A stretch of DNA of 64,000 nucleotides from Kineosporia babensis (lineage in GTDB: Bacteria; Actinomycetota; Actinomycetes; Actinomycetales; Kineosporiaceae), in the NCBI RefSeq assembly GCF_021129305.1, contig NZ_JAJOMB010000007.1, positions 186,001-250,000 on the forward strand, read 5' to 3'. Below, piece after piece: positions 45,839 to 63,193 of this stretch. The notes under the pieces are model-generated. The model did not search any database and was not told where the DNA came from. It saw only the letters and a list, made by a program, of their open reading frames with translations. The first letter of the stretch is position 1, and the number at the start of each line of letters is the position of its first letter. Both the position numbers and the translations under genes were made by a program.

Positions 45839-46594
45839 TCAGAACTGCCCGCGCTCCAGTGCGGTTTTCAGCAACGCCGAGTGCAGCTGCACGCACAGCG
45901 CCATCAGTTCTTCGGCCATTTCCTGGGCGCTCTCGCCGGAGGCCTGCCCCTGGCCGCGGGTGACCTGCTCGATCAGCCCGGCCTCACGGTCGGCGGCGGT
46001 CCGGAAGGCCCGCAGATGACGCGGCTCGAGGCCGAAGGCGGCCAGTTCACCGGCGGTGTGGGCGACGGCCAGGGCCTCGGCGTCGAAGGTCCCGGCGGGC
46101 CGGGCCGCGACCAGGCCGTGCGACTCCAGCTCGGTCAGCACCGCCTCGCTGATCTCGGCGGCGGCCAGCAGCTGGGCCCGGCTGAACCGGCCCTGCAGCG
46201 GCGGCCCGAGCACTTCGGGGTCCTCGGCGTCCAGGGCCTCGGCGTCCAGGGCCTCGGGAAGGGGCTCGACCAGCCGCGGGAACCGGCTGACCGGGGCCTG
46301 CAGACCGGCGTCGATCGCGTCCAGGTGCTCGCGGATGACCCGCAGCGGCATGTAGTGGTCACGCTGTACCCCGAGCACGTACCGCAGCCGGTCGACGTGC
46401 TCGGGGGTGAACTTGCGGTACCCCGCGGCGGTGCGCAGCGGCTCGACCAGTCCCTGGTCCTCCAGGTACCTGATCTTCGAGATCGAGATGTCCGGGAAGT
46501 CCTGCCGCAGCAGCTCCAGGACCGCCCCGATGCTCATCGCACCGCTGGGGTCACCCGCGCTGTTGGCGTGGGGCCCCGCCGCCGCGCCCCTCAT
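45839..46594 (-). CDS. ftsR: MerR-family regulator, FtsR/Rv1828 type
   Basis: 251 residues. The MerR helix-turn-helix (MSIGAVLELLRQDFPDISISKIRYLEDQGLVEP, start of the conserved part) is followed by a second helical domain, as in Rv1828 and corynebacterial FtsR, which controls cell-division genes. The acidic linker contains a repeated DAEAL coded by two perfect 15-bp repeats. The true start may be the internal ATG at 46537. It follows garA by 5 bases. Confidence 0.85.
   Translation of the reverse strand: MRGAAAGPHANSAGDPSGAMSIGAVLELLRQDFPDISISKIRYLEDQGLVEPLRTAAGYRKFTPEHVDRLRYVLGVQRDHYMPLRVIREHLDAIDAGLQAPVSRFPRLVEPLPEALDAEALDAEDPEVLGPPLQGRFSRAQLLAAAEISEAVLTELESHGLVAARPAGTFDAEALAVAHTAGELAAFGLEPRHLRAFRTAADREAGLIEQVTRGQGQASGESAQEMAEELMALCVQLHSALLKTALERGQF
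46226..46255 (-). repeat. Two perfect 15-bp tandem repeats inside the ftsR-like gene
   Basis: GGCGTCCAGGGCCTC occurs twice (46226-46240, 46241-46255). In frame, so unit gain or loss changes only the linker length. Confidence 0.85.
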
Positions 46595-46599
46595 CGGCC

Positions 46600-47076
46600 T
46601 CAGGAGGTACGGCGGCTGGGGTGGAAGACCAGCCGGTACTTGCCGATCTGGACCTCGTCCCCGTCCTTCAGCAGGGCTTCGTCGATCCGGTCGCCGGCCA
46701 GGTAGGTGCCGTTCAGGCTGCCCGCGTCGCGCACGAAGAACTGCCCACCGCGGCGCAGGAACTCGGCGTGCTTGCGCGAGACCGTGACATCGTCCAGGAA
46801 GATGTCGCTGTCCGGCTTGCGCCCGGCCGTGGTGCGCTCGTCGTTCAGCAGGAACCGGGCGCCGGCGTTCGGCCCCCGCTGCACCACCAGCAGCGCCGAC
46901 TGACCGGGCAGGGCGTCCACCGCGGCCTGCTCGGGGCCGGACAGACCGGTGGGGCGTTGTTCCTCGTCGATCCCCGGTATGGCACCGAAGGAGATCGTCG
47001 TCTCGACCATCGGCGCGTCGTACTCACGCCTGGCACCCTCCGGCCCCTGACCGCTCAGGAACCTCGGTTCCGACAT
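46600..47076 (-). CDS. garA: FHA-domain protein, GarA/OdhI type
   Basis: 158-residue regulator that, in relatives, switches 2-oxoglutarate metabolism. The N-terminal ETT motif (T26/T27 in VETTISF) is the PknB/PknG phosphorylation site, and the C-terminal FHA domain has GRKPDSDIFLDDVTVSRKHAEF and GSLNGTYL. The unphosphorylated form inhibits oxoglutarate dehydrogenase and stimulates glutamate dehydrogenase. AGGAG precedes the ATG by 7 bases. It heads the ftsR-like operon. Confidence 0.92.
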   Translation of the reverse strand: MSEPRFLSGQGPEGARREYDAPMVETTISFGAIPGIDEEQRPTGLSGPEQAAVDALPGQSALLVVQRGPNAGARFLLNDERTTAGRKPDSDIFLDDVTVSRKHAEFLRRGGQFFVRDAGSLNGTYLAGDRIDEALLKDGDEVQIGKYRLVFHPSRRTS

Positions 47077-47113
47077 GTCGATCTCCTGTCTCGTGAAGTC
47101 TGACTAGCGTAAC

Positions 47114-47132
47114 CCTCACCTAGTGGTTGAGG
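47114..47132. promoter_or_regulatory. MerR-type operator candidate upstream of garA
   Basis: CCTCA...TGAGG, a 19-base imperfect palindrome (7 of 9 pairs), 37 bases before the garA start and next to a TACGCT -10-like hexamer. Its arms resemble SoxR-type MerR operators (CCTCAAG...CTTGAGG). A MerR regulator is encoded downstream in the same operon. Confidence 0.5.
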
Positions 47133-47215
47133 CATGTACCGGTTGCCCCCCGTTCACCCGGGCATCAACCGACTCGCCGGACCGTTCCGGCCCCTGGCCG
47201 GGGGCGATCCGGTCC

Positions 47216-47602
47216 TCAGTCCAGCTGAGTCTGGTACTCGGCCGCGCTGAGCAGGCCCTCGAACGCCTCCGGCCCCGCCACCGTGACCTCGAACATCCAG
47301 CCGTCGCCGTACGGGTCGGAGTTGACCAGTTCGGGTGTGGCGTCCAACGCCGGGTTACGAGTGGTCACCGTACCGCTCACCGGGGCGTAGACGTCACTCA
47401 CGCTCTTCGTCGACTCCACCTCGCCGCAGGTGGTACCGGCCTGCACGGCCGTGCCGTCCTCGGGCAGCGTGACGTAGACGATGTCGCCGAGCGCGTCCTG
47501 GGCGAACGCGGTGATGCCCACCCGGGCGACGTCGCCCTCGATCCGCACCCACTCGTGATCGGTGGTGTACTGCAGCTCGTCCGGGTACTCGAAGTCGCTC
47601 AC
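47216..47602 (-). CDS. gcvH: Glycine cleavage system H protein
   Basis: 128-residue lipoyl carrier of the glycine cleavage system. The lipoyl-lysine is K66 in VESTKSVSDVYAP. The GTG at 47602 has GAGGG upstream. It precedes garA on the same strand, as in M. tuberculosis (Rv1826-Rv1827). Confidence 0.95.
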   Translation of the reverse strand: MSDFEYPDELQYTTDHEWVRIEGDVARVGITAFAQDALGDIVYVTLPEDGTAVQAGTTCGEVESTKSVSDVYAPVSGTVTTRNPALDATPELVNSDPYGDGWMFEVTVAGPEAFEGLLSAAEYQTQLD

Positions 47603-47620
47603 TGCGCCCTCGTCTTCCTC

Positions 47621-48799
47621 TCAGTCCTGGGGCTCGTCGGTGCGGGGCACGGCGTAGGTCGGTCCGACCGCCTCCCGCACCACCGGCACCTCGAGATCTT
47701 GCCTGCGCTGAACCGTACCGCTCGCACCCACCTGGTGCAGCGTCTCCAGCACGCCGCCGGGGATGTTGAGCGCCGATTCCATCGTCGCCGGGTCACCGAT
47801 CGCCAGCAGCCGGTAGGGCGGGGACTGCTCGAGGCCGTCGGCGACCACCGCGCCACCGGTCGGCGGATCGGTGAACGAGGTGCTGGCCACCACCCGGACC
47901 TGGCCGAACTGGATCGCCTCGGCGCCCGCGTCCCGCAGCTCCTGGACGGCGTCGAGCACGGTGGAGGCGTCGAGCAGGGCCTGCGGGTCCTCGATCCGGA
48001 TCACCACGCCCGGGCCCTGGGCGGGTTCGGTGCCGGCCAGGATGCCGAGTACGTCAAGCCGTTCCCGAGTGGCCTTTTCCGCAGCCGCGGCCCGGTCGGT
48101 CCCGGACTGCAACTCGTTCTGGGTCTCCTCCAGAGTGCGGGCCTCAGCATCGAGCCGTTCGCTCTGCCGGCTGACGTCGTCCAGAACTCGCACCAGCTCG
48201 CTCTGGCTGAGCGAACTCAGATCGTTGGACGTGGTCTGCCGGGCCTGCACGACCAGGCCGAACCCGAGGGCGCCGAGCAGGACGGCGGCCAGAATCTGAA
48301 ACCTGGTCACCCGAAATCGAGGACGGGGGACGCGCGCCGGCTGGGCACCGTCACCGGCGGCGGGGGCCGGGTCTTCAGGAGCAACGGACGGGGTGCTCGC
48401 CGTGGTCTCGCCGGTGCCGGTGGTTGCGGTAGCTGCGGATTCAGGACCAGTAGCGGCAGCGCCCGTGGCCCGCGTGGCTTCGGCTTCCGGGCGGGCGGGT
48501 TCCTGAGGCGGGATCGGCAAGGTGTCGTCGTCCGAGGCAGATCCTGGCTCAGTGTCCCGGCCACCTACCCCCGGCGACCCGGCCGACGTCCCCGCGCCAC
48601 CCGTCCGTTGCTGTTGCTCTTGCTCCCCCGAACTCTCACCGAGCACTGGCGGCACTGCCCCCGAAGGCAACGGCCGACGTCCCCCTGCGGGCCGGATCAC
48701 CCGCGTACGGCCGGGATTGGCCGGCCGCGAGATCGGCATCGGCGCCGTGTCGGCGCTCTGCTCGTCCTCCGGCTGCTCGCCGGGCTTCTGCTCAGCCAT
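47621..48799 (-). CDS. DUF881-family membrane protein, long form
   Basis: 392 residues: a disordered Pro/Ala/Thr/Glu-rich N-terminus of about 165 residues, one transmembrane helix (FQILAAVLLGALGFGLVV), a coiled coil, and the DUF881 domain (GPGVVIRIEDP...). Matches Rv1825 by position. Function unknown; it lies in a conserved membrane-protein cluster with a second DUF881 protein and a small basic protein. Confidence 0.88.
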   Translation of the reverse strand: MAEQKPGEQPEDEQSADTAPMPISRPANPGRTRVIRPAGGRRPLPSGAVPPVLGESSGEQEQQQRTGGAGTSAGSPGVGGRDTEPGSASDDDTLPIPPQEPARPEAEATRATGAAATGPESAATATTGTGETTASTPSVAPEDPAPAAGDGAQPARVPRPRFRVTRFQILAAVLLGALGFGLVVQARQTTSNDLSSLSQSELVRVLDDVSRQSERLDAEARTLEETQNELQSGTDRAAAAEKATRERLDVLGILAGTEPAQGPGVVIRIEDPQALLDASTVLDAVQELRDAGAEAIQFGQVRVVASTSFTDPPTGGAVVADGLEQSPPYRLLAIGDPATMESALNIPGGVLETLHQVGASGTVQRRQDLEVPVVREAVGPTYAVPRTDEPQD

Positions 48800-48802
48800 G
48801 CA

Positions 48803-49135
48803 TCACGCCTTGAAGATGTGCCGGCGGATCGCCGCCGCGTTGGAGAAGATCCGGATGCCCAGCACGACCACCACCCCGGTCGAGAGCTGCGCCCCCACTC
48901 CCAGATGGTCCCCCAGGAACACGATCAGCGCCGCCACCACCACGTTGGACAGGAAGGAGACGATGAACACCCGGTCGTCGAAGATCCCGTCCAGCATCGC
49001 CCGTACCCCGCCGAACACCGCGTCCAGCGCCGCCACCACGGCGATCGGCAGGTAGGGCTGCAGCCAGAGCGGGACGGTCGGCTGCAGCACCAGGCCGGCC
49101 ACCACCCCGACCAGCAGTCCGATCGCCGCGATCAC
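48803..49135 (-). CDS. sbp: Small basic protein (DUF1290)
   Basis: 110-residue membrane protein with three hydrophobic segments and the DUF1290 core ALDAVFGGVRAMLDG. Matches Rv1824 by position. Homologues are conserved next to division or envelope genes. It starts with a GTG overlapping the previous stop (GTGA). Confidence 0.88.
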   Translation of the reverse strand: MIAAIGLLVGVVAGLVLQPTVPLWLQPYLPIAVVAALDAVFGGVRAMLDGIFDDRVFIVSFLSNVVVAALIVFLGDHLGVGAQLSTGVVVVLGIRIFSNAAAIRRHIFKA

Positions 49136-49977
49136 GTACGTCCTCCAGAAATAGGTTCGGCCTCTCTGAGCACGAACTGCCCGGCCCCCGGGAGCGTGAG
49201 CTCCGGCGCCGCGGCGATGTCCACGCGAATACCGTTGTTGTCCCGCAACGACTGCACGTACGGCCCGGCCTGCCCCTCGGCGAACTCCGACTGCAGGGAG
49301 CCCGGCTCACCCACCACCGAGATCACGTAGGGCGGCACCAGCGGCCGGAAGTCGACCAGGATCGCCTGCCCGGCCGAGCGGATCGCCGAGATCGCGGTCA
49401 GCCGCTCGCCGTTGATCGAGATCGCCTCGGCCCCGGCCGCCCACAGCCCGTTCACCACCACCTGCAGGTCCGCGTCGAGCACCACGCCCTCGTCGTAACC
49501 GGTGGCCGCCCGCGGATCGCTGCCGACCGCGTCCCGCCCGGGGGCGTCGTCCAGCGTGACCTGGATGCCCTTGCCGTGGACGGCGAGTTCACCGGTGAGG
49601 GCGCCGAGTTCCTGCACCTGACGGCTGAGCGCGGCGCCGCGGGTCCCGAGCAGGGTCTGCTGGGCGGCGGCATTGGCGGCGGCGATCTCGGCGTTGTGCT
49701 GCTTCTGCTCGGCCACCGCCTCGGAACGGTGCTCGATCTCCTCGCGCAGTTCCCGGCTGACCGCGTCGGACTCGCGCTGCGGCACCCGGATCGAGACGAC
49801 CGACACGGCGAACCCGGCCCCGGCGACGATCGCCAGCACCAGGGTGAGCGCGATCCGCAGCGGGGTGCGCGGTTTCGGGTCGGCCGCGGCCGCTGCGTAG
49901 CCGGGGTCGAGCGGGCGTTCCATCACCTCGCGCAGCAGGGTCATCGAGGCGTCGAGCGGGCGGGGACGCTCGCTCAT
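49132..49977 (-). CDS. DUF881-family membrane protein, short form
   Basis: 281 residues: a short cytoplasmic tail, one transmembrane helix, a coiled coil (about 75-130) and the DUF881 domain, with an ISINGERLTAISAIRSAG segment typical of the family. Matches Rv1823 by position. The ATG at 49977 overlaps the pgsA stop; the long upstream frame is a shadow of pgsA. Confidence 0.88.
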   Translation of the reverse strand: MSERPRPLDASMTLLREVMERPLDPGYAAAAADPKPRTPLRIALTLVLAIVAGAGFAVSVVSIRVPQRESDAVSRELREEIEHRSEAVAEQKQHNAEIAAANAAAQQTLLGTRGAALSRQVQELGALTGELAVHGKGIQVTLDDAPGRDAVGSDPRAATGYDEGVVLDADLQVVVNGLWAAGAEAISINGERLTAISAIRSAGQAILVDFRPLVPPYVISVVGEPGSLQSEFAEGQAGPYVQSLRDNNGIRVDIAAAPELTLPGAGQFVLREAEPISGGRT

Positions 49978-50612
49978 CCGGCCGCCTCGCCCTGCGCCCC
50001 GGGCGGTGCGGAGCTGATCGGGGGTTTCTTGGTCAGGTGCTCGCGCAGCGCCAGCACGGCCGCGGCCTGGCGCAGGTAGATCAGCGCCGACCACCAGTAC
50101 AGCGCGGTGCCCCACCAGGCGAAGGCCCAGCCGACCGGCATCGCGATGTCGCCGAACCGGCCCTCGATGTCGCCGAGCAGCAGCAGCGGGAAGGCGTAGA
50201 GCAGGTTGGCGGTGGCGGCCTTGCCCAGGAAGCTGACCTCCAGCGGGCGGCGCTCGTCGTTGGTCATCAGCAGCAGCGAGCCGACCAGCACCGCGTCCCG
50301 GGCGATCAGCAGCAGCACCAGCCACCACGGGATCACCTCGCGGTAGGCCAGGCCGAGCAGCGTGGTCAGGATGTACAGCCGGTCGGCCACCGGGTCGAGC
50401 ATCTGCCCCAGGCGGGTGGTCTGCCCCCAGCGCCGGGCCAGGGTGCCGTCCAGGTAGTCGGTGAATCCGCTCACCATCAGCACGACCACCGCCCAGCCGA
50501 CGTGGTCGAGCAGGATCAGCGCGGCGAAGACCGGCACCAGCAGCAACCGGCCGAAACTGAGCAGGTTGGGAATGTTGAGCACCCGAGTGCCGCTCACCGG
50601 GTTCTCTCCCAC
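49974..50612 (-). CDS. pgsA: CDP-alcohol phosphatidyltransferase (PgsA type)
   Basis: 212-residue membrane enzyme with the CDP-alcohol motif DGTLARRWGQTTRLGQMLDPVADR (DG-x2-AR-x8-G-x3-D-x3-D complete). It makes a phospholipid headgroup, probably phosphatidylglycerophosphate, but cardiolipin or inositol types cannot be excluded. I use the GTG at 50612, 9 bases after AGGAGG; the GTG at 50618 is too close to that site. Confidence 0.85.
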   Translation of the reverse strand: MGENPVSGTRVLNIPNLLSFGRLLLVPVFAALILLDHVGWAVVVLMVSGFTDYLDGTLARRWGQTTRLGQMLDPVADRLYILTTLLGLAYREVIPWWLVLLLIARDAVLVGSLLLMTNDERRPLEVSFLGKAATANLLYAFPLLLLGDIEGRFGDIAMPVGWAFAWWGTALYWWSALIYLRQAAAVLALREHLTKKPPISSAPPGAQGEAAG

Positions 50613-50839
50613 CGGCACGTTCCTCCTTCTTCCGTTCTCCCCGAATGCCCACCGCGGCGAACCGGGCCTGAGCCGCCAGGACAGCCTACGGGGCGCCGGG
50701 TACTGCGACCGGGCACCCGGCTTCAGGTATAAATCTGCAGTCCCGGCGAGGCGGGCGATTGGCGGCATTAACTCCTTATGCTGTGTCGGGGACCGTACGC
50801 GGGGTAACCGGTTCGTGAGTGGCGGGTTGGGGAGGTGGC

Positions 50840-53167
50840 GTGGGGCGCAGGCCGGGTACCACCATGGCCGACTCCGTCACCACGGCCGGCGCCGTCTACG
50901 TCCTGGACGCGCTGGCGGTGGCCGGATCGGCGTTCGTGCTGGTCTGGAGCACCGTGCCGGGCAGCCGCGACTCGGCCCTGGGGGTACTGGTCATCGCGCT
51001 GACCGCGCTGCTGCTGGTCGGCCTGACCGTCGCCCTGGCCCGGCTCGGCTCACGGCCCTTGCCCGCCATCCCCGCGCCGCTGCTGTGGCTGCCCCTGCTC
51101 GGCGCCGCCCTGGTCACCTCCTGGCACCTGCTGGCCGGCCGCGAGCTGGGCCCCGCCGAGACCGCGGTCGCCCTGGGCCTGGCCCTGCTGGTGATGCTGC
51201 GCCAGTCGTTCACCGGCCTGGACAACGTCCGGCTGGTCCGGGAGCTGCAGGAGAGCCAGGACCGGCTGCGGGCCCAGGCGTACCACGACTCGCTCACCGG
51301 CCTGGCCAACCGGGCGCTGTTCGACCAGCGGCTGCGCCGGGCGATCCGGGGCGGGCGCCCGCTCGGCCTGATCTTCTGCGACCTGGACGACTTCAAGGCG
51401 GTGAACGACCGGCTGGGTCACAACGCGGGCGACGAGGTGCTGCGCGCGGTGGCCGGCCGGCTGCGGGCCTGCGTGCGGCCGATGGACACGGTGGCCCGGC
51501 TCGGCGGGGACGAGTTCGCGATCCTGATGGAGGACGCGGCGGAGTCGCCGGACGTGATCGGCAACCGGATCCTGGGGGCGGTCGGCAAGCCGTTCCAGCT
51601 GGAGCACCGGGGGCGGGCGACCCGGGTCCTGGTCGGCGCCAGCGTGGGGGTCGCGGTGCTGGACAAGGTGGATCAGGACGCCTCGCCGGAGAGTTTGCTG
51701 GCCCGGGTGGACCAGGCGATGTACGCGGCCAAGCGGCGCGGCAAGAATCAGCTGGTCACCTTCCGGCACGGCACCCCGGACAGCCCCGACCCGCGCTACC
51801 TGCCTCTGCCCGACCCCGAGGCGCCCCCTCCGAACTCTGTCCCGGCCCTGGCGCCGAACCCGGTTCTTGCCCCGGCCACCGGCCCGATCCCCCGAAACGG
51901 CACCTCTTCCACCATGCATCCGGTCACCCCCGCCGCCCAGTACCGCGCCTCCGGCCAGGCCCGTCCCGAGCCGCCGCGCCCGCCCGCCACCGAAGAAGAG
52001 CTCAAGGCCCAGGAACGGGCCCGGCTCACCGCGGCCGCCCAGCGGTCGGTGGAACGCAGCCTGGCCGAGTACCAGGCGCTGGAGAAGGAGTCCGAGCGGC
52101 GGGAGGCCGAACGGGCCGCCGCCGAGCGCCGCGCCGCCGAGGCCCTGCAGATCGAGGCCGAGGTCCGGGCCGGCACCCGTCCCGAGGCCGAGGTGATCCC
52201 GCTCAGCCGGGCCGTCGACCTCCGCGCGCAGAAACAGGCTGCCGAGGCCGAAGCCGCCGCCGAGACCCTGCAGATCGAGGCTGCTGAGGCCGAGGCGGTC
52301 GAGGCAGAAGCGGTCGAGGCCACCCGCCGGGCCAAGAACGCGGCCGAGTCCCAGGCGGCTGCCGCCCCGAGCACTCAGCCCCGCAACGCCGGGCCGGTCA
52401 GCGAGGCCGAGACCCTGCAACGGGCCGAGCAACTGGCGGCCCTCTCCTCCGACCACATCTCCGTCCTTTACCGCCCGGTGCTCAGCCTGCGCACCGGGCA
52501 GCTGACCGCGCTCGCCGCCGCCGTGCGCTGGCAGCACCCGGTGCACGGCCCGATGCCGGTCGACGCGCTGATGTCCGCCGCCGAGCAGGCCGGGCTGCGC
52601 CGGCCGCTGGAAGAACGCCTGCTGGACTCGATCTGCTCCGCCCTGGCCCTGCTGCGCAAGGCGCCGGACTGGGACGAACTCACCGCGCACGTGCCGCTGC
52701 CCACCCTGTACCTGGCCGACGACCGCCTGGTCACCGTGCTCGAACGCACCCTGCGCCGCCACGACCTGCCCGGCAGCGCCCTGGTGCTGCAGATCACCGA
52801 GGACGGCCCCTCCCCCGACCTGAACGCCGCCGCGCGGGTGCTCGGCCGGGTCCGGGCTCTGGGCGTGAGCCTTGGCCTGGAGGCTTTCGGCGCCGGCCCG
52901 GGCGACCTTGGCTTCCTGACCCGCCTGCCGATCGACAACCTCACGCTGCACCGCTCGCTCGCCGCCGCCGAACCCGGCAGCCGTTCCGAGGCCGTGCTGG
53001 CCGGCACCATCGCGATGACGCCGGGACTGAAACTCACGCTGATCGCCGACGGGGTCAGCCACCAGGTGCAGGCCGACCGGCTGCACACGCTCGGGGTGGA
53101 CCTGGCGCAGGGGCCGCTCTACGGCGAACCGGTTCCGCTGCCGGAACTCGATCTGCTGCATCTGTGA
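50840..53167 (+). CDS. GGDEF diguanylate cyclase with degenerate EAL domain
   Basis: About 775 residues. N-terminal membrane segments (about four) and a short coiled coil lead to a GGDEF domain with intact GGDEF (about 222-226) and RxxD site RPMD (213-216). A long Pro-rich and then Glu/Ala-rich helical linker follows, then an EAL-type domain. The EAL glutamate is lost (AAAVRW instead of EALVRW), DDFG reads EAFG and KID reads TLH, so phosphodiesterase activity is unlikely. The GTG at 50840 (GGGGAGG upstream) is my start; GTG 50819 or ATG 50864 are alternatives. Confidence 0.85.
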   Translation: MGRRPGTTMADSVTTAGAVYVLDALAVAGSAFVLVWSTVPGSRDSALGVLVIALTALLLVGLTVALARLGSRPLPAIPAPLLWLPLLGAALVTSWHLLAGRELGPAETAVALGLALLVMLRQSFTGLDNVRLVRELQESQDRLRAQAYHDSLTGLANRALFDQRLRRAIRGGRPLGLIFCDLDDFKAVNDRLGHNAGDEVLRAVAGRLRACVRPMDTVARLGGDEFAILMEDAAESPDVIGNRILGAVGKPFQLEHRGRATRVLVGASVGVAVLDKVDQDASPESLLARVDQAMYAAKRRGKNQLVTFRHGTPDSPDPRYLPLPDPEAPPPNSVPALAPNPVLAPATGPIPRNGTSSTMHPVTPAAQYRASGQARPEPPRPPATEEELKAQERARLTAAAQRSVERSLAEYQALEKESERREAERAAAERRAAEALQIEAEVRAGTRPEAEVIPLSRAVDLRAQKQAAEAEAAAETLQIEAAEAEAVEAEAVEATRRAKNAAESQAAAAPSTQPRNAGPVSEAETLQRAEQLAALSSDHISVLYRPVLSLRTGQLTALAAAVRWQHPVHGPMPVDALMSAAEQAGLRRPLEERLLDSICSALALLRKAPDWDELTAHVPLPTLYLADDRLVTVLERTLRRHDLPGSALVLQITEDGPSPDLNAAARVLGRVRALGVSLGLEAFGAGPGDLGFLTRLPIDNLTLHRSLAAAEPGSRSEAVLAGTIAMTPGLKLTLIADGVSHQVQADRLHTLGVDLAQGPLYGEPVPLPELDLLHL

Positions 53168-53182
53168 GCGGCCCCCACGCCC

Positions 53183-54739
53183 TCACTGCAGATTGCTGCG
53201 CGGGCCGTGGAACCAGTGCTTGACCGAGATGTGCCACCCGGCGTACAGCGCACCCAGCAGCAGCGCCAGCACGATCGGTGCGTAGTTCACCGCGGTCCAG
53301 CTGAAGTCGTCGTTCAGCGGCCAGCCCGCGGGTGAGAACGGCAGCACGAAATACACCGAGGTGACGGCGATCTCGGCAACCGCGAGCAGACACAGCCAGC
53401 GATACCGCGAACCCAGCGTCCAAGGCCCGGGCTGCCAGTCGTCCCCGATTCGCCACCGCAGGTAGATCGGGATGGCGAAGGCCAGGTACAGACCGATCAC
53501 GCCGATCGAGACCACTGCGTAGAACGCGGTCGGCGCACCCGAAGGACTTTCGTACAGCGCCGGCAAGGTCAGAACCAAAGCCGCTGCCCCGGCTGCGAAC
53601 ACCGCGTTGCGCGGCACCCCCTTGGCATCGACCGTGGCCCACCAGCCCGAACCCGGCACCGCCCGGTCCCGGCTGAAAGCGAACAACATCCGCGAGGTGG
53701 ACGTCATACAGGCGGTCGAGCAATAGATCTGGCCGCTCATGCTGATGAACACCACCAGCTTGAACAACGCCGGAGACAGCGCACTCGAGAGCACGGCCAG
53801 CACGCTACCGCCGCCGTAGGGGTTCACCGCCGGGTCGAAGGAATTGATGAAGTCCGTCTCGGTGGCGGCGAAAAGGAAGGCCAGCAGCAGGATCCAGCCG
53901 CCGATCGCCGAATAGAGAATGGACTGCCAGATCCCCTTGGCCGCCGCGTTCGCCGCTCCCTGGGTCTCCTCGGAAAGGTGGGCCGAGGCGTCGTAACCGG
54001 TGATGGTGTACTGCGTGAGCAGAAACCCCAGCGGCAGCACGTAGAACCAGAACGTGCTGTCCCCGTCGCCACCGATCCCGGCGTTGTTGATCCGCTCGGT
54101 GAACACGAACGACAGGCTCTGGTGCGAGTCCGGCCCGAACACCAGGACCAGCACCACGATCAGTGCCCCGAACACGTGCCACCAGACGCTCACGTTGTTG
54201 ATCACCGCGAGCAGGTGCGAGCTGAAGATGTTCACCGCGGTGATCAGCGCCAGCAGCGCGACGAACCAGAAGAACTGCTGGTACAGGTAGTTCCCGCCGA
54301 GGAAGCCGGTGGCGTACCCGTCCGAGAACAGGTCGATGAAGGTGTTCAGGTAGATCGCGGCGCCGTAGGCCACCGAGGCCAGGATCGCCACCAGCCCGAC
54401 CAGGTTCAGCCAGCCGGTGTAGTACCCGGCCTTGGCCCCGCCGAGTTTCGCCGCCCACCAGTAGATCCCGCCCGAGGTGGGGTAGGCCGAGACCAGCTCG
54501 GCCAGGCAGAAGCCGATGATCAGGATGAACGCCGAGATCACCGGCCAGCCGATCGAGATCGCGATCGGGCCGCCGTTGTTCCAGGCCTGGCCGAAGGTGG
54601 TGAAGCAGCCGGCCAGGATCGAGATGATCGAGAACGAGATGGCGAAGTTCGAGAAGCCGGACCAGGAGCGGTGCAGTTCCTGCTTGTAGCCGAGCCGGGC
54701 CAGGACCGACTCGTCGTCGTTCACCGTGCTGTCTGACAT
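53183..54739 (-). CDS. APC-family amino acid permease
   Basis: 518 residues, about 12 transmembrane helices. Motifs include FSNFAISFSIISILAGCFTTFG in helix 1 and AELVSAYPTSGGIYWWAAKLGG, characteristic of the amino-acid/GABA-permease branch. The ATG at 54739 has GAGGAGA 6 bases upstream. The substrate is probably an amino acid or polyamine; unknown. It lies downstream of the NACHT gene on the same strand with a gap of 102 bases. Confidence 0.88.
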   Translation of the reverse strand: MSDSTVNDDESVLARLGYKQELHRSWSGFSNFAISFSIISILAGCFTTFGQAWNNGGPIAISIGWPVISAFILIIGFCLAELVSAYPTSGGIYWWAAKLGGAKAGYYTGWLNLVGLVAILASVAYGAAIYLNTFIDLFSDGYATGFLGGNYLYQQFFWFVALLALITAVNIFSSHLLAVINNVSVWWHVFGALIVVLVLVFGPDSHQSLSFVFTERINNAGIGGDGDSTFWFYVLPLGFLLTQYTITGYDASAHLSEETQGAANAAAKGIWQSILYSAIGGWILLLAFLFAATETDFINSFDPAVNPYGGGSVLAVLSSALSPALFKLVVFISMSGQIYCSTACMTSTSRMLFAFSRDRAVPGSGWWATVDAKGVPRNAVFAAGAAALVLTLPALYESPSGAPTAFYAVVSIGVIGLYLAFAIPIYLRWRIGDDWQPGPWTLGSRYRWLCLLAVAEIAVTSVYFVLPFSPAGWPLNDDFSWTAVNYAPIVLALLLGALYAGWHISVKHWFHGPRSNLQ

Positions 54740-54841
54740 GGGTCTCCTCAGGGGGTTGAAGAGCAGCAGGCGCAAACCATCACTCTGAGGCGTTTCGGGC
54801 ACCGGCATCGCGGGTCACATCCGGATGAAGCGCTGAGCGGC

Positions 54842-57800
54842 TCAGACCTCGTCGGCGAGCAGCCGGCGCAGGGCGTCGTAGGCGTAGTCCCGGGCCGGCC
54901 GCCCGTGAGGTCTGCCGATCTCACCGAACCGGGTGTCATCAAGGGCGGCGAGCAGCAGCTCACACACCTGCACGTGGTGCACCGGCGAGGCCCCGACCTT
55001 CACCAGCTCATCCACCACTGCGCCACGTGCACCCAAGTGCGGGGTCAGCATCAGGTTCACCAACGGCACGAAATCGACCACGGGCTGCCGCAGCCGCAAG
55101 TAGAACAGCAGCTGCACAGCCGGGCGGGCACGAACGCCTAGAATTCGCTCACTGGACTGCAGACAGCAACTCAGACTGCCGATGAGACAATCGGTTCGGC
55201 CGGGATCGAGATCACCGATCAGCCTCGACGCCAGATCCCAGCCAGCCAGTTGGATCCATGCCACGAGCGCAGGCCGGCGAAGCGCCAGTTCTGTTTCCGG
55301 GTCGGAGCCGACCTTCAGCAGCCACTCAGCCAAGCCCGGAGTACGCCGGTCAGCCCAGCCGAGAGCAGTGAGCACCGCTGCCCGCAGAGCGGAACCCTGC
55401 TGAGTGTCACAGGCCAGTGGCAGCAGCACTTGCGTGACTTCGTCGGTCAGTGGCCGTTCACCCAACGCTGCCACGGCCGAGCTACGCACCACCGCCGGCT
55501 GAGCCTCGTCGGCGGCCCAGGCCAGCAAGCGATCGTTCACCTGTTGCCGGCCATCGGCCCGATTCAGAGCCTTGACCGCCCGAGACCTCAGCAACGGCTC
55601 CAGCTCCGGGGCCGAGATCAGTTCCAGCAGATACTCGGTCGTTTCGGGGCTGCTCGAAGCTCGTCCCAGCGCCCCGATCGCCGCATCACGCAGTGAGAGA
55701 TCCTGCGTCTCGTCCCGGCTCAGCACCAGCAGGCGATCGCCCACCCGCGGATCGCCCGCCTCCTGCGCAAGGGATGTCAGAACCATTAGTTCCTCAGCAC
55801 TGGTGAGCTTCGGGTCCTTGCCCAGTTCCAGCAACTGCCCGACCGTCTCAGCCGTGACCTCCAGCCCCAGAAGGACCTGAGCGCGACCAAGGGGGTCGAG
55901 ACCGGGATCGAGGCTGAACTGGACAAGGCGTTCCTCCACCTGCAGCCCGGGCATCCCTGCCTCGGCCCAGGCGGCGACCAATCGGGCCCGCACCCCCAGA
56001 TCCACACTCTCGTCCCGGCTCAGGTCAAGGATCCTCGACTCGATCTCGGGCACCCAGGTAGCCAACGCGCCGGCCGCGTGGAACTGCACCTGCCGGTCTG
56101 CACCGACGCTGAACTCCAGAAGCTGCTCCAGCATCCGTGGTTCAGCGGCGACTACAGCCGCCGCTCCGATCCACCGGCAGCGCTGTTCGCTGCCCCCGGG
56201 CACCGCCTGAAGAAACCGCCCAGCCAAAACCTCTCGATAGGAGGCGCTCTGCATCGAACTCAGCACGGCGAGCACACTCGCCCGGTAGCCGGAGTACTGC
56301 GCTCGGCCCTGGCAATGCATCAGTTCCTCGGCGGCCTGACCGAGCAGCTTCTCCGCCAGTGGCCGGTCCACCGGGATCTCGTCCGCCAGGCAGCGCAGGG
56401 CGAACAAGAAGTCCCGGCCCAGCAGTTCCTCGTGCGGGGTGGGCGCTGGCTCCTCGTCCTCGTCGCCCAGCGCCAGCACTGCCGCCGCCACCAGGTCGTT
56501 CGAGGCCTCGGCCGAGCTCAGGCCGGTGAAGCCCAGCGCCAGCAGAATCGGCTCCTGCCAGCGCGGGTCGTGGAGCTGGGCCCGGATCAGGCCGATCCGG
56601 CGCCTCGGCAGTGCCACCAGGTAGCGCGCGGCGTAGTACTCCTGAAAGGTCAGGTGCAGGAAGCCGTATCGCCCGGGCGCCCGCTCCACGAAGAGACCGG
56701 TGTGCACCCGCACCGTGGCCAGGAACTTCTCCACCTCGCTGAGCACCGTGGGCGACGGGTCCTCCTCGTCCCACGGCTGTCCGTTGATCTTGGCCCAGCG
56801 CGGCCCCAGCACCTGCAGGATCTCGTCGTGCCGGGCCATGCCGTCCGGCCGGTTCGAGTGGATCCAGTAGGCCAGATCGCCCAGCAGCCGGGTCACGTGG
56901 CGCTCCTCGGCCAGGGCGGAGGCGGGCACGCCCTGCGCGGTGCGCCAGGTCCGGGCCAGGGTGTCGGCGGCCAGCCGGTACAACTCGATCCGCTTCTGCG
57001 GCAGCTGCGCCCCGGTGCTGTGAATCAGAGCGAGGATCCGCAGCATGAGCGGGTTCACGGCCAGCCGGGCCACGCCGGGGGCGTGGTCCACGGCGGCCAG
57101 GATCGCGCTGACCTCGGCGCCGGCCGCCCCACGATGCAACTCGGCCGAGGCGTGCGGTGCCTGGGCCTGCTCGACGGCCAGGCACCAGCGCCGCAGGAAG
57201 CCCTCGATCTGCTCCCGGTCCATGTCCCTGGCCCGGAAGTGCACGAAGTCGCCGGTCAGCGGGACCTCGCGGTAGCCGGCCACCCGGCTGGTGATCACGA
57301 ACCGGTTGCCCGCCCCGGCGTGCCGGCGGACGAACTCTTCCACCCGTTTGACCACGCCGGTGCGGTCGGTCACGGTGGTGATCTCGTCCAGGCCGTCGAG
57401 CAGGATCAGCACATCGCCGTTGGCCAGGCGCTGGGTGAACAAGTCCCCCAGCGCGTCGGCCGGGCAGTCCGCCAGGTCGTGGAACTTCTCCAGGAAGTCG
57501 GTGAGCGAACTACGGCGCCAGGTCTCGTCCTGGGCGTAGTCGCCGATCCGGATCAGCACCGGCAGGCGGACCCGGCCTTCGGGCAGATCCTCGCGAGGAG
57601 CATCCGGATCGGCCAGCGCCCGGGCGTTGGCCAGGGCCAGATGCCGCAGCAGAGTGGTCTTTCCAGCGCCTGGATCGCCCAGGACCACCACCTGCGGATG
57701 CGCACCGAGCACCGTCTTCCACCCGAGCACCACCCGGCTGCCGCTGCTCTCCGAAGCCGACGGCTCGTCGTGCTCCGTGTCCGGCCCGTTCAGTTCGTTC

Positions 57801-58426
57801 AGTACCGCAGCGTCCAGGCTGACGAAGATCTCCTCGAGCCTGAGCTTGACCTGACGCTGGGTCTGGAACGTGCCGCGGGGATCCAGATGGAGGTTCCGGT
57901 CGATCGCCCAGTCCAGGTAGTCCCAGGTGGTGGCCTCGGTCGCCGCTCCCGCGCCGAGCGCCGCACGCACGGCCGCCAGATCGGTTCTCAGCTCATCGAT
58001 CGCCCTGGCGTCAAGGACGGGACCGGCGGCCGACTCGGAAGTGATCGCCGCGGTGAATGCTTCCAGGAAGGTCGTTGCGGCGGGCTCGACCTCCCGGACC
58101 AGGGGCAGGCGCTCGCCGGACGAACTGAGCGACCGGACGTAGCTGCGGGCCAGATCGGCCGGTACGACCTGCTGGCCCCGGGTGATCACCCGGGCGATCA
58201 GCGGTGCCGCCTCGTGCTCCAGGAAGGAGGCGTCGAACAGCGAGCCGGTCCAGCCCGGGTGCCGCTCCTGCAGCACTTCCAGGGCCTTGGCCAGCGAGTT
58301 CTTCACCGCCAACTGCAGCGGTTCGCGGCCCACCGCGCGCAACGCCGTGTTCTTGACCGGCGCGCTCTTCAACGCGGCGCCGACCACGCCACCGGCGATC
58401 CGCCACACCACCGCATCCGTAAGCAT
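54842..58426 (-). CDS. Large NACHT NTPase with HEAT-like repeats (bacterial NLR-like)
   Basis: 1194 residues. The N-terminal ~230 residues are helical with no recognised enzymatic motif and resemble NACHT N-terminal helical domains (GSLFDASFLEHEAAPLIAR). The NACHT core has Walker A GDPGAGKTT (250-258), Walker B VLILLDGLDEI (339-349), a sensor ITSRVAGY (378-385), and the winged-helix mark GFLHLTFQEYYAARYL (588-603). Residues about 700-1160 are tandem HEAT-type helical repeats, likely the ligand-sensing part. Bacterial NACHT proteins include anti-phage defence NTPases; here the effector is unclear. ATG 58426 is used; 18 unconserved residues precede it. Confidence 0.88.
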   Translation of the reverse strand: MLTDAVVWRIAGGVVGAALKSAPVKNTALRAVGREPLQLAVKNSLAKALEVLQERHPGWTGSLFDASFLEHEAAPLIARVITRGQQVVPADLARSYVRSLSSSGERLPLVREVEPAATTFLEAFTAAITSESAAGPVLDARAIDELRTDLAAVRAALGAGAATEATTWDYLDWAIDRNLHLDPRGTFQTQRQVKLRLEEIFVSLDAAVLNELNGPDTEHDEPSASESSGSRVVLGWKTVLGAHPQVVVLGDPGAGKTTLLRHLALANARALADPDAPREDLPEGRVRLPVLIRIGDYAQDETWRRSSLTDFLEKFHDLADCPADALGDLFTQRLANGDVLILLDGLDEITTVTDRTGVVKRVEEFVRRHAGAGNRFVITSRVAGYREVPLTGDFVHFRARDMDREQIEGFLRRWCLAVEQAQAPHASAELHRGAAGAEVSAILAAVDHAPGVARLAVNPLMLRILALIHSTGAQLPQKRIELYRLAADTLARTWRTAQGVPASALAEERHVTRLLGDLAYWIHSNRPDGMARHDEILQVLGPRWAKINGQPWDEEDPSPTVLSEVEKFLATVRVHTGLFVERAPGRYGFLHLTFQEYYAARYLVALPRRRIGLIRAQLHDPRWQEPILLALGFTGLSSAEASNDLVAAAVLALGDEDEEPAPTPHEELLGRDFLFALRCLADEIPVDRPLAEKLLGQAAEELMHCQGRAQYSGYRASVLAVLSSMQSASYREVLAGRFLQAVPGGSEQRCRWIGAAAVVAAEPRMLEQLLEFSVGADRQVQFHAAGALATWVPEIESRILDLSRDESVDLGVRARLVAAWAEAGMPGLQVEERLVQFSLDPGLDPLGRAQVLLGLEVTAETVGQLLELGKDPKLTSAEELMVLTSLAQEAGDPRVGDRLLVLSRDETQDLSLRDAAIGALGRASSSPETTEYLLELISAPELEPLLRSRAVKALNRADGRQQVNDRLLAWAADEAQPAVVRSSAVAALGERPLTDEVTQVLLPLACDTQQGSALRAAVLTALGWADRRTPGLAEWLLKVGSDPETELALRRPALVAWIQLAGWDLASRLIGDLDPGRTDCLIGSLSCCLQSSERILGVRARPAVQLLFYLRLRQPVVDFVPLVNLMLTPHLGARGAVVDELVKVGASPVHHVQVCELLLAALDDTRFGEIGRPHGRPARDYAYDALRRLLADEV

Positions 58427-58489
58427 TACCGCAAAACGTACCGGCGCCGGGCCCGTCGAGGTGCCCGAAACCACCAGCAAACCAATGGA

Positions 58490-58522
58490 GGACGCTGGTG
58501 CGCGAGTTGCGCACCAGCGTCC
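58490..58522. repeat. 33-nt hairpin element, copy 2 (upstream of NACHT gene)
   Basis: A perfect 14-bp inverted repeat (58490-58503 with 58509-58522) around GAGTT, with a CCAATGG-like flank. It lies 64 bases upstream of the NACHT start and 36 bases after the PHP stop, so it could terminate the PHP transcript or act in the NACHT leader. Confidence 0.85.
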
Positions 58523-58557
58523 CCAGGTTTGCTCTGTGGTGTTCTACCGGACCGAAC

Positions 58558-59382
58558 TCAGCGCCGCCAGAAATCGAAACGGTCGCGCCCGGGCCGGAAA
58601 CCGGCCGCCTCGACCACGTCCACCGCCAGGTCGAACTGCGCCCCCACCCGGTACGGCACGTGCGCGTCGCTGCCGAAAGACACCGCCTCGCCGCCCTCCT
58701 CGTACCACCAGCGCATCAGCTCGGCCGACCAGAGCGGGCTGCGGGTGTTGATCTCCAGCGCCCGGCCCGAGGTGGCGAGCGCCCGGAAGACGCTGCGGTA
58801 CTCCTCCTCGAACAGCTTCTCGTCGTACGCGTTCGCGCTCTGCGGCCAGTAGCGGCGCGGGAAGTCGCAGTGCGCCAGCACCTGGAACACGTCCGAGCCC
58901 TTGATCAGCTCGACCAGGCCCTCGAAGTAGCGGCGCATCAGGTCCTCGGTGGGCATCACGTTCAGCCCGAAGACCCGCTCCGGCGAGATCATCCGGCCCT
59001 CGTGGACCACCGAGTGCAGCGAGCCCAGGACCCGCTCGAACGCGCCCGAGTTCAGCACCGCGGCCACGCTGCCCGGGAACAGGTGCGGCTCGCCGGTCTC
59101 GATGCCGGACAGGATGCGCAGTTCGGGGTACTTGTCCCGGCAGCGTTCCAGTTCGGCCTGGTACGCCTCCACGTCCAGGGGCAGGACCCGGTCCCGGAAG
59201 ACGATCGAGGTCTCCCCGGGCGGCAGGTCGTCGTGGGCCCAGGCGGTGAAGTCGACATGCTCGGTGAAGGCGATCGCGGGCAGGCCGATCTCGACGGCCT
59301 TCGCGCAGGTCAGATCCATCGAGCCGTTGCTGCGGGTGTCCCAGCTGAACTGGGAGTGCACGTGGTTGTCGGGGGGAAGCAT
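58558..59382 (-). CDS. PHP-domain phosphoesterase (histidinol-phosphatase-like)
   Basis: 274 residues with PHP metal motifs DNHVHSQFSWD, AFTEHVDFT, GSLHSVV, VLAHCDF and SFGSDAH. The family includes histidinol-phosphatases, but some are DNA- or sugar-phosphate-specific. The ATG at 59382 is used, with a GTG at 59388 also possible; the start faces the sirtuin gene 35 bases away, so promoters are shared or overlapping. Confidence 0.85.
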   Translation of the reverse strand: MLPPDNHVHSQFSWDTRSNGSMDLTCAKAVEIGLPAIAFTEHVDFTAWAHDDLPPGETSIVFRDRVLPLDVEAYQAELERCRDKYPELRILSGIETGEPHLFPGSVAAVLNSGAFERVLGSLHSVVHEGRMISPERVFGLNVMPTEDLMRRYFEGLVELIKGSDVFQVLAHCDFPRRYWPQSANAYDEKLFEEEYRSVFRALATSGRALEINTRSPLWSAELMRWWYEEGGEAVSFGSDAHVPYRVGAQFDLAVDVVEAAGFRPGRDRFDFWRR

Positions 59383-59416
59383 CGCCACGATTCTCTCATC
59401 GGCGCACAATGAGCAG

Positions 59417-60271
59417 GTGAACACCCCGGCAACCCCAGCGTTCGAAAAGCTCGTCGACCTCCTCGCCGAGGGCGGAGCAGTGGTTCTCAGCGGGGCCGGT
59501 ATCTCCACCGACTCGGGCATTCCGGACTACCGCGGGCCGTCCGGGGCGCTGCGCCGGCACACCCCGATGACGTACCAGACCTTCATGGGCGATCCGGCGG
59601 CCCGGCACCGTTACTGGGCCCGCAGTTTCCTGGGCTGGCGGCAGATCGCGCTGGCCCGGCCCAACGCGGCCCACGAGGCGGTCGCCGGGCTGCAGCGCCA
59701 GGGTCTGCTCGAGGGTGTGATCACCCAGAACGTGGACGGGCTGCACCAGGCCGCCGGGGCCCAGGACGTGATCGAGCTGCACGGTGGGCTCGACCGGGTG
59801 ATCTGCCTGGAGTGCGGCGGCGAGACCGGCCGCGCCGACCTGGACCAGGCGCTCACCGCGGCCAACCCGGACTTCACGACGCGGGCCGAGCAGATCAACC
59901 CCGACGGCGATGTGGACCTGCCGGAGGACGAGCTGGACGCCTTTGTGATGGTCGGCTGCAGGCACTGCGGTGGTGGGCCGCTGCGGCCGGACGTGGTGTT
60001 CTTCGGCGAGACGGTGCCCCGGCCGCGGGTGGACAAATGCTTCGCCGCAGTGGACCGCGCGAAGGCCCTGCTGGTCCTGGGTTCCTCACTCAAAGTGATG
60101 TCGGGCTTCAGGTTCGTGCTACACGCGAGCAAACAGGGCATTCCTGTGGCAATCGTCAACCAAGGTGAAACTCGGGGCGATACGTACAGCGACATCCGGC
60201 TCGATGCCCCGCTCGGCGTAGTGGTACCCGCCCTGCATCACGCACTGAGCGCAAAGTGCATGATCAACTAG
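59417..60271 (+). CDS. Sirtuin-family NAD-dependent protein deacylase
   Basis: 284 residues. NAD and catalytic motifs: GAGISTDSGIPDYRG, QNVDGLHQAAG and the catalytic His in ELHGG; zinc cysteines CLEC and CRHC; then PDVVFFGE and GSSLKV. It removes acyl groups from lysines. The GTG at 59417 is chosen because conserved sequence starts soon after; a -10-like CACAAT 7 bases upstream suggests a leaderless message. A hairpin spans the stop codon. Confidence 0.9.
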   Translation: MNTPATPAFEKLVDLLAEGGAVVLSGAGISTDSGIPDYRGPSGALRRHTPMTYQTFMGDPAARHRYWARSFLGWRQIALARPNAAHEAVAGLQRQGLLEGVITQNVDGLHQAAGAQDVIELHGGLDRVICLECGGETGRADLDQALTAANPDFTTRAEQINPDGDVDLPEDELDAFVMVGCRHCGGGPLRPDVVFFGETVPRPRVDKCFAAVDRAKALLVLGSSLKVMSGFRFVLHASKQGIPVAIVNQGETRGDTYSDIRLDAPLGVVVPALHHALSAKCMIN

Positions 60272-60293
60272 CCTGAACGGGCACTTTGTGCTC
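60247..60293 (+). terminator. Hairpin spanning the sirtuin stop codon
   Basis: GAGCGCAAAGTGC (60247-60259) pairs with GCACTTTGTGCTC (60281-60293) with one G-T, and the TAG (60269-60271) lies in the 21-base loop. No T-tract. It may terminate transcription or protect the 3' end. Confidence 0.55.
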
Positions 60294-60429
60294 CACCGCT
60301 CGGGTAGGTTGACGTCGGCCGACCGGTTGACAGTCGGTGCACAGATCTCATCAGCCGTAGTCGCAGAACGACGGGCTCGCCGCACCAGCTGGAATCCGTC
60401 GCCGTCGCCCCAGAGAGCGAGAGCCGCAG

Positions 60430-63193
<2,764 letters not shown>

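Follow-up and report, generated by a model that had tools for sequence, protein, structure and literature searches.

The question raised by this locus is whether one NACHT gene, lying at 54842–58426 on the minus strand of the window (the whole stretch of 64,000 nucleotides analysed from Kineosporia babensis contig NZ_JAJOMB010000007.1), encodes by itself an immune receptor. An earlier note on this DNA had proposed a single-gene immune sensor. We consider, with a probability of roughly 70%, that the gene was acquired horizontally and encodes a bacterial NLR-related (bNACHT) receptor that stands alone and would pass from a closed monomer to a ring. The sensor part of the proposal is well supported because the predicted fold, the patchy presence among relatives, the clean insertion, the absence of shared neighbours and the exchange of N-terminal domains point the same way; the anti-phage part is taken over from relatives. 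Judging from the class and these relatives, a role in defence is likely, with phage as the most likely target; the front of the protein is NNH2-like and would serve as effector or adaptor. The protein looks like a bacterial counterpart of the human intracellular immune receptors and belongs to a kind known in other bacteria, and what the present locus adds is its insertion as an accessory gene and the exchange of front and sensor.

Nucleotide-binding switch and NLR-like fold

The gene is one intact open reading frame of 1194 amino acids plus stop, from the ATG at 58426 to the stop at 54842, without internal stop. This ATG aligns with the starts chosen for the relatives, and an in-frame TTG is also present at 58480. 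All parts of the gene described below are likewise on the minus strand. The claim of a complete NACHT core was confirmed: the nucleotide-binding domain covers residues 244–420 (57167–57697), Pfam NACHT (PF05729) matches residues 246–414 (E 1.5e-10, 41.6 bits, cut-off 26.7), and Walker A (GDPGAGKTT, residues 250–258, 57653–57679), Walker B (VLILLDGLDEI, residues 339–348, 57383–57412) and the winged-helix motif HLTFQEYY (residues 588–603, 56618–56665) are all present. In an alignment of 27 rows, K256, D344, R381, P459 and E596 are invariant; G250, G253, G255 and T258 of Walker A also show no variation, G345 of Walker B is invariant, and D347 is kept in at least 90% of the rows. H591, L592, T593, F594 and E596 of the winged-helix motif are invariant in all seven family members compared.

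The structure prediction that had been suggested gave a model with a mean predicted local distance difference test score (pLDDT) of 83.9. It matches NLRP3, NLRC4 and NOD2 over about residues 160–760, continues as a HEAT-type solenoid, and is all-helical from about residue 610 to 1194. By analogy with these NLR matches we name residues 421–720 (56267–57166) helical domain 1, winged-helix domain and helical domain 2; this part is 38–49% identical between the window protein and six family members. Taken from sequence and model together, the protein is an intact NACHT ATP switch in NLR-like domain order, with an NNH2-like bundle before it and a HEAT-type solenoid after it.

The reference for bNACHT proteins is reportedly Kibby et al. 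2023. As described in the accessible part of a report on bNACHT25 (PMC12169576), a bNACHT protein is one gene with an N-terminal effector region, a NACHT switch and a C-terminal sensor, and related proteins of this layout defend E. coli. The window protein has both a NACHT module whose Walker A and B are intact and, in the predicted model, the same order of domains; it differs in its N-terminal domain, its HEAT-type sensor and its actinobacterial host, and is known here from sequence. Two stretches of it match the NCBIfam anti-phage NACHT family EruA (NF058535), best at the P-loop (residues 239–266, E 7.3e-15, 54.2 bits), far below the equivalog cut-off of 1000 bits; HyoA (NF058534) gives 14.2 bits against a cut-off of 1200. 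PADLOC (2023) finds nothing in the protein beyond the P-loop, where five models match 22–35 residues each (best E 0.0024), and none of its Avs models matches. Avs proteins combine an Avs-type effector with sensing of phage terminase or portal. Avs3 (PDB 8dgc) shares with the window protein a STAND-type NTPase and a large helical sensor, although the likeness is a remote fold match only (Foldseek E 4.1e-6, much weaker than the NLR matches).

The resting state would be an ADP-bound closed monomer, whose solenoid may bind either something made by the phage or a host factor that has been disturbed. Exchange of ADP for ATP would then open the winged-helix domain, and the opened protomers would assemble into a ring. 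The N-terminal domains clustered there may act on a target themselves, such as membranes or some component of the cell, or bring in another effector; arrest or death of the infected cell would be the outcome. A working receptor of this type would be a single-gene, NLR-shaped immune candidate outside a recognised defence island, with a front domain placed in a named helical class.

The N-terminal domain and its exchange

The earlier note had described a helical N-terminal region of about 230 residues without nuclease, TIR, protease or membrane motif. Its helical nature stands for residues 1–178, which form a bundle in the model (helices at 4–21, 27–32, 34–55, 66–83, 89–100, 106–130 and 140–156, nearly the same in a second analysis), whereas the remainder is a linker with low confidence at 188–190 and 212–230. 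We assign residues 1–165 (57932–58426) to the N-terminal domain proper, a putative effector or adaptor, and residues 166–243 (57698–57931) to the linker, which carries a YL..ID...L...G motif followed by the loop 212–230 (pLDDT below 50). For many relatives, the shared part starts where the linker does: in 18 of 70 relatives' frames, the alignment begins at query residue 169 or 170.

The profile search that had been proposed for this region found no Pfam family with the window protein alone, which also scores below the gathering score of 27 bits of NNH2 (NACHT N-terminal Helical domain 2, PF22734), and PADLOC has no match for the domain. Among eight distinct siblings, seven likewise stay below 27 bits, and the one from Micromonospora gifhornensis (L085) reaches 49 bits over profile positions 26–178 of 181. 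A profile built from the eight siblings, including this one and leaving out the window copy, recovers the window domain with an independent E-value of 8.5e-9 (Z set to 2000). Since the homologous M. gifhornensis sibling exceeds the NNH2 cut-off, the window domain is tied to this family, which it also resembles in position and helical make-up. By these profile comparisons, residues 1–165 are related to NNH2, though divergent. A wholly new domain was therefore rejected despite the silence of Pfam and PADLOC on the window copy, and the region is not as unassigned as had been supposed. Pfam shows no enzyme domain in the bundle, and its fold has no clear match either. We found no paper on the mechanism of the NNH2 helical class.

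In remoter relatives, fronts other than NNH2 precede the NACHT module. We compared 66 N-terminal regions (65 of the 70 relatives' frames, siblings included, and the window copy), in which Y170 and L204 are kept in at least 90%. Pfam recognised CHAT in four, caspase in three, NNH2 in three (siblings at least in part), TIR_2 and DUF4062 in two each, and EAD10, metallophosphatase, trypsin-like and SIR2 domains in one each. The best-scoring frame outside Actinobacteria, from an Anaerolineae contig (L089), aligns at 37% with residues 169–921 of the window protein and thus shares linker, NACHT and HEAT part with it, while its front is DUF4062. Pfam finds no DUF4062 (Swarozyc, DUF4062 NADase) in the window protein; the accessible text of PMC13174449 reports this domain as an anti-phage NADase. 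Two related NACHT proteins (L104, L106) have no HEAT repeats at the C-terminus but an FGE-sulfatase domain. Taken together, the CHAT, caspase, TIR, SIR2 and DUF4062 fronts and the FGE-sulfatase backs indicate that front and back are exchanged around a linker–NACHT core; the parts available of PMC8195603 and PMC7159879 describe the same for STAND conflict proteins. The Chloroflexi contigs L105, L108, L111, L093, L095, L096, L099, L106 and L115 each hold two to four NACHT-type frames.

A bundle without recognisable enzyme might be an adaptor and not an effector; once oligomerised, it would use helical contacts to bring in an executioner encoded by another gene. We regard this as a possible but less probable alternative. 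Effector-associated domains have been proposed as coupling modules (PMC8195603, in its accessible part), and a caspase-domain gene lies second downstream of the orthologue of Actinoplanes utahensis (L060:7764-9614, minus strand). In the survey of orthologue neighbourhoods that had been called for, however, no called neighbour is common to the window and the seven relatives' loci, and the caspase occurs at one of these seven (20 neighbour frames scanned by Pfam). A shared partner gene was rejected also by all-against-all BLAST of the eight loci, which links only loci of closely related species. Our neighbour caller used a filter on G+C content at third codon positions (GC3), so neighbour genes of lower GC3 will have been missed by it; open reading frames were additionally listed in 13 gap stretches. 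PADLOC, applied to 26 neighbour frames (E ≤ 1e-5), matched seven models: mad2 and HTH_VI with two members each, and caspase (4.3e-28), subtilase (1.1e-17), capH and two RmrA models with one member each. Effector-type domains therefore occur near some relatives, none of them at a shared position.

Turnover of the HEAT sensor

Residues 721–1194 (54845–56266) form the putative sensor, a HEAT-like alpha-solenoid. That this part consists of HEAT-like repeats, as had been claimed, agrees with the solenoid in the model and with HEAT_2 matches in five of seven family members. Pfam HEAT models do not match the window copy itself at E ≤ 0.1, and the best self-similarity period of its C-terminal 474 residues, 34 amino acids, scores −0.45, barely more than the highest value among 100 shuffles (−0.48).

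Identity between the window protein and six relatives is 45–49% in NACHT, 30–33% in the N-terminal domain and 18–30% in the sensor where aligned. The same gradient is found in DNA between close orthologues. In five close pairs, the DNA of N-terminal domain plus NACHT is 93.9, 94.5, 94.0, 91.9 and 82.3% identical, and the C-terminal DNA, in the same order, 66.8, 80.4, 68.0, 69.0 and 59.6%, with 219, 879, 666, 936 and 461 gap columns. Three species account for three of these pairs, and M. wenchangensis, whose gene is cut by a contig end, belongs to two, so that part of the gap columns is an artefact. Tandem arrays of a 102-bp unit are present in four of eight family members (9.4, 7.2, 3.9 and 12.9 copies, the third cut), another has a 105-bp array of 3.2 copies, and three have no array at the threshold used; the window copy has none, and its sensor repeats are degenerate. 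Thus, as far as sequences tell, N-terminal domain and NACHT are conserved in the family and the HEAT sensor diverges fast, which in some members involves 102-bp units being gained and lost. In the open-licence literature, so far as its text was accessible, we noticed no description of such internally conserved repeats in bacterial NACHT-HEAT proteins.

A more far-reaching view, which we hold tentatively and think rather doubtful, is that this rare actinobacterial lineage of NLR-like receptors is a set of modules, in which a nearly constant NNH2-like effector and NACHT switch are combined with a HEAT sensor remodelled between close species as 34-amino-acid units are gained and lost, the bundle acting directly, in a resistosome-like manner, once oligomerised. 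If true, repeat shuffling would let bacteria change what a single-gene immune receptor recognises. For a working receptor, close orthologues with near-identical front and switch and different sensors would be a natural set for the study of HEAT-sensor recognition and repeat turnover in bacteria.

The accessible part of PMC12222747 describes fungal NLRs of the HET-D/E type, whose repeats have high internal conservation, a property also frequent in bacterial WD40 proteins and known for HEAT repeats in fungi. Several family members have like tandem sensor repeats in varying number, although their sensor is HEAT and the fungal one WD40. Since fungal allorecognition makes use of NLRs whose sensor repeats are almost identical (same source), the protein might guard the cell from prophages, plasmids or gene-transfer elements, or serve self/non-self recognition, instead of acting against lytic phage. 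The 102-bp arrays in four of the eight family members examined are in keeping with this idea; the window copy without such an array argues against it, and we consider it unlikely.

Probable acquisition of the gene and its surroundings

The receptor reading includes horizontal acquisition, for which the locus itself speaks. DNA homology with the nearest congener ends at 54840 and restarts at 58557, and the NACHT gene occupies the gap (54841–58556), inserted between an amino-acid permease gene and a PHP gene. The gene is absent from all five sampled congeners. Its GC3 is 0.85, against 0.91–0.96 in four other window genes; a DUF881 gene at 47.6 kb is also low (0.82). No repeats marking the insertion event were seen at the locus, which we read as the lineage-specific acquisition of one gene.

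Presence elsewhere is patchy. Within the taxonomic family of the window genome, three of 13 genomes match, namely this genome and two others through the NACHT part only (30–31%). A search with the N-terminal domain, which scored a capped number of candidates per genome, hit at least three of 394 genomes of the class (the window genome, G147 and G084), and at least six of 200 genomes in the family of G147, itself among them. The G084 match is spurious, being antisense to another gene, presumably a Pup ligase gene, and a wider spread of the domain was rejected on these counts. The search with the NNH2 family gave 0 of 296 genomes and also 0 of 14 controls, and therefore says nothing on absence. 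A contig scan of 59 loci found orthologues in M. gifhornensis, M. wenchangensis, M. antibiotica, M. zingiberis and A. utahensis.

Three results weigh against a role in defence. Phage records contained no match and no near-full-length relative; plasmid records contained none covering 80% of the gene; and PADLOC recognised no defence genes nearby. Among ten window genes at 45839–63193 (E ≤ 0.001) it returned two hits, mad1 on a MerR-type helix-turn-helix protein (7.3e-9) and PDC-S06 on a DUF881 protein (7.2e-4), in line with the earlier statement that there is no recognisable defence island.

The gene lies among metabolic genes, and two of the four NACHT-model matches in the genome look like regulators, which we take to be of AfsR type and LuxR type. 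That the protein is a STAND regulator of signalling or development with no relation to phage defence is nevertheless quite improbable: Pfam found no DNA-binding domain in the protein, all five congeners lack the gene, and fast sensor change with exchange of front domains speaks against it. A decaying or silent acquired gene, for which degenerate sensor repeats and the position at a rearrangement breakpoint might be cited, is very improbable with a full-length frame and its nucleotide-binding and winged-helix motifs kept.

The rearrangement concerns a gene that we take to be rtcB-like. It adjoins the permease divergently in five congeners, and the nearest congener has permease, rtcB and PHP in this order. 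In the window genome, the rtcB-like gene has the opposite orientation and is about 11.6 kb away from the permease. A comparison with genome G004 shows an inversion of the segment 58557–67633, and one of its breakpoints is at the NACHT gene. Among congeners, the permease, rtcB-like and PHP-to-argininosuccinate-synthase block is rearranged at 54840, 58557 and 63707 up to 67633, which is past the window end (L061). Before the NACHT start, a strong hairpin at 58488–58524 (minus strand) is likely the terminator of the upstream PHP gene; the fold z-score of 58470–58557 is −8.1, and the search for terminator-like matches gave one, where shuffled sequence would give 1.2. Within a second gap, missing from the nearest congener, is a gene for a Ser/Thr kinase that carries a ricin-type lectin domain, and 60430–61695 encodes a Matrixin-type metalloprotease with a bacterial Ig domain.

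RCC1-repeat proteins are encoded near two orthologues (L057:14728-16227 and L058:12801-14336), and an IS110-type transposase and a subtilase near that of M. gifhornensis (L085:14718-15254 and L085:7820-9091). The window genome has a second NACHT gene (L002, G000:C34:321512-322075), which combines NNH6 and NACHT with pentapeptide repeats and a series of near-identical WD40 repeats.
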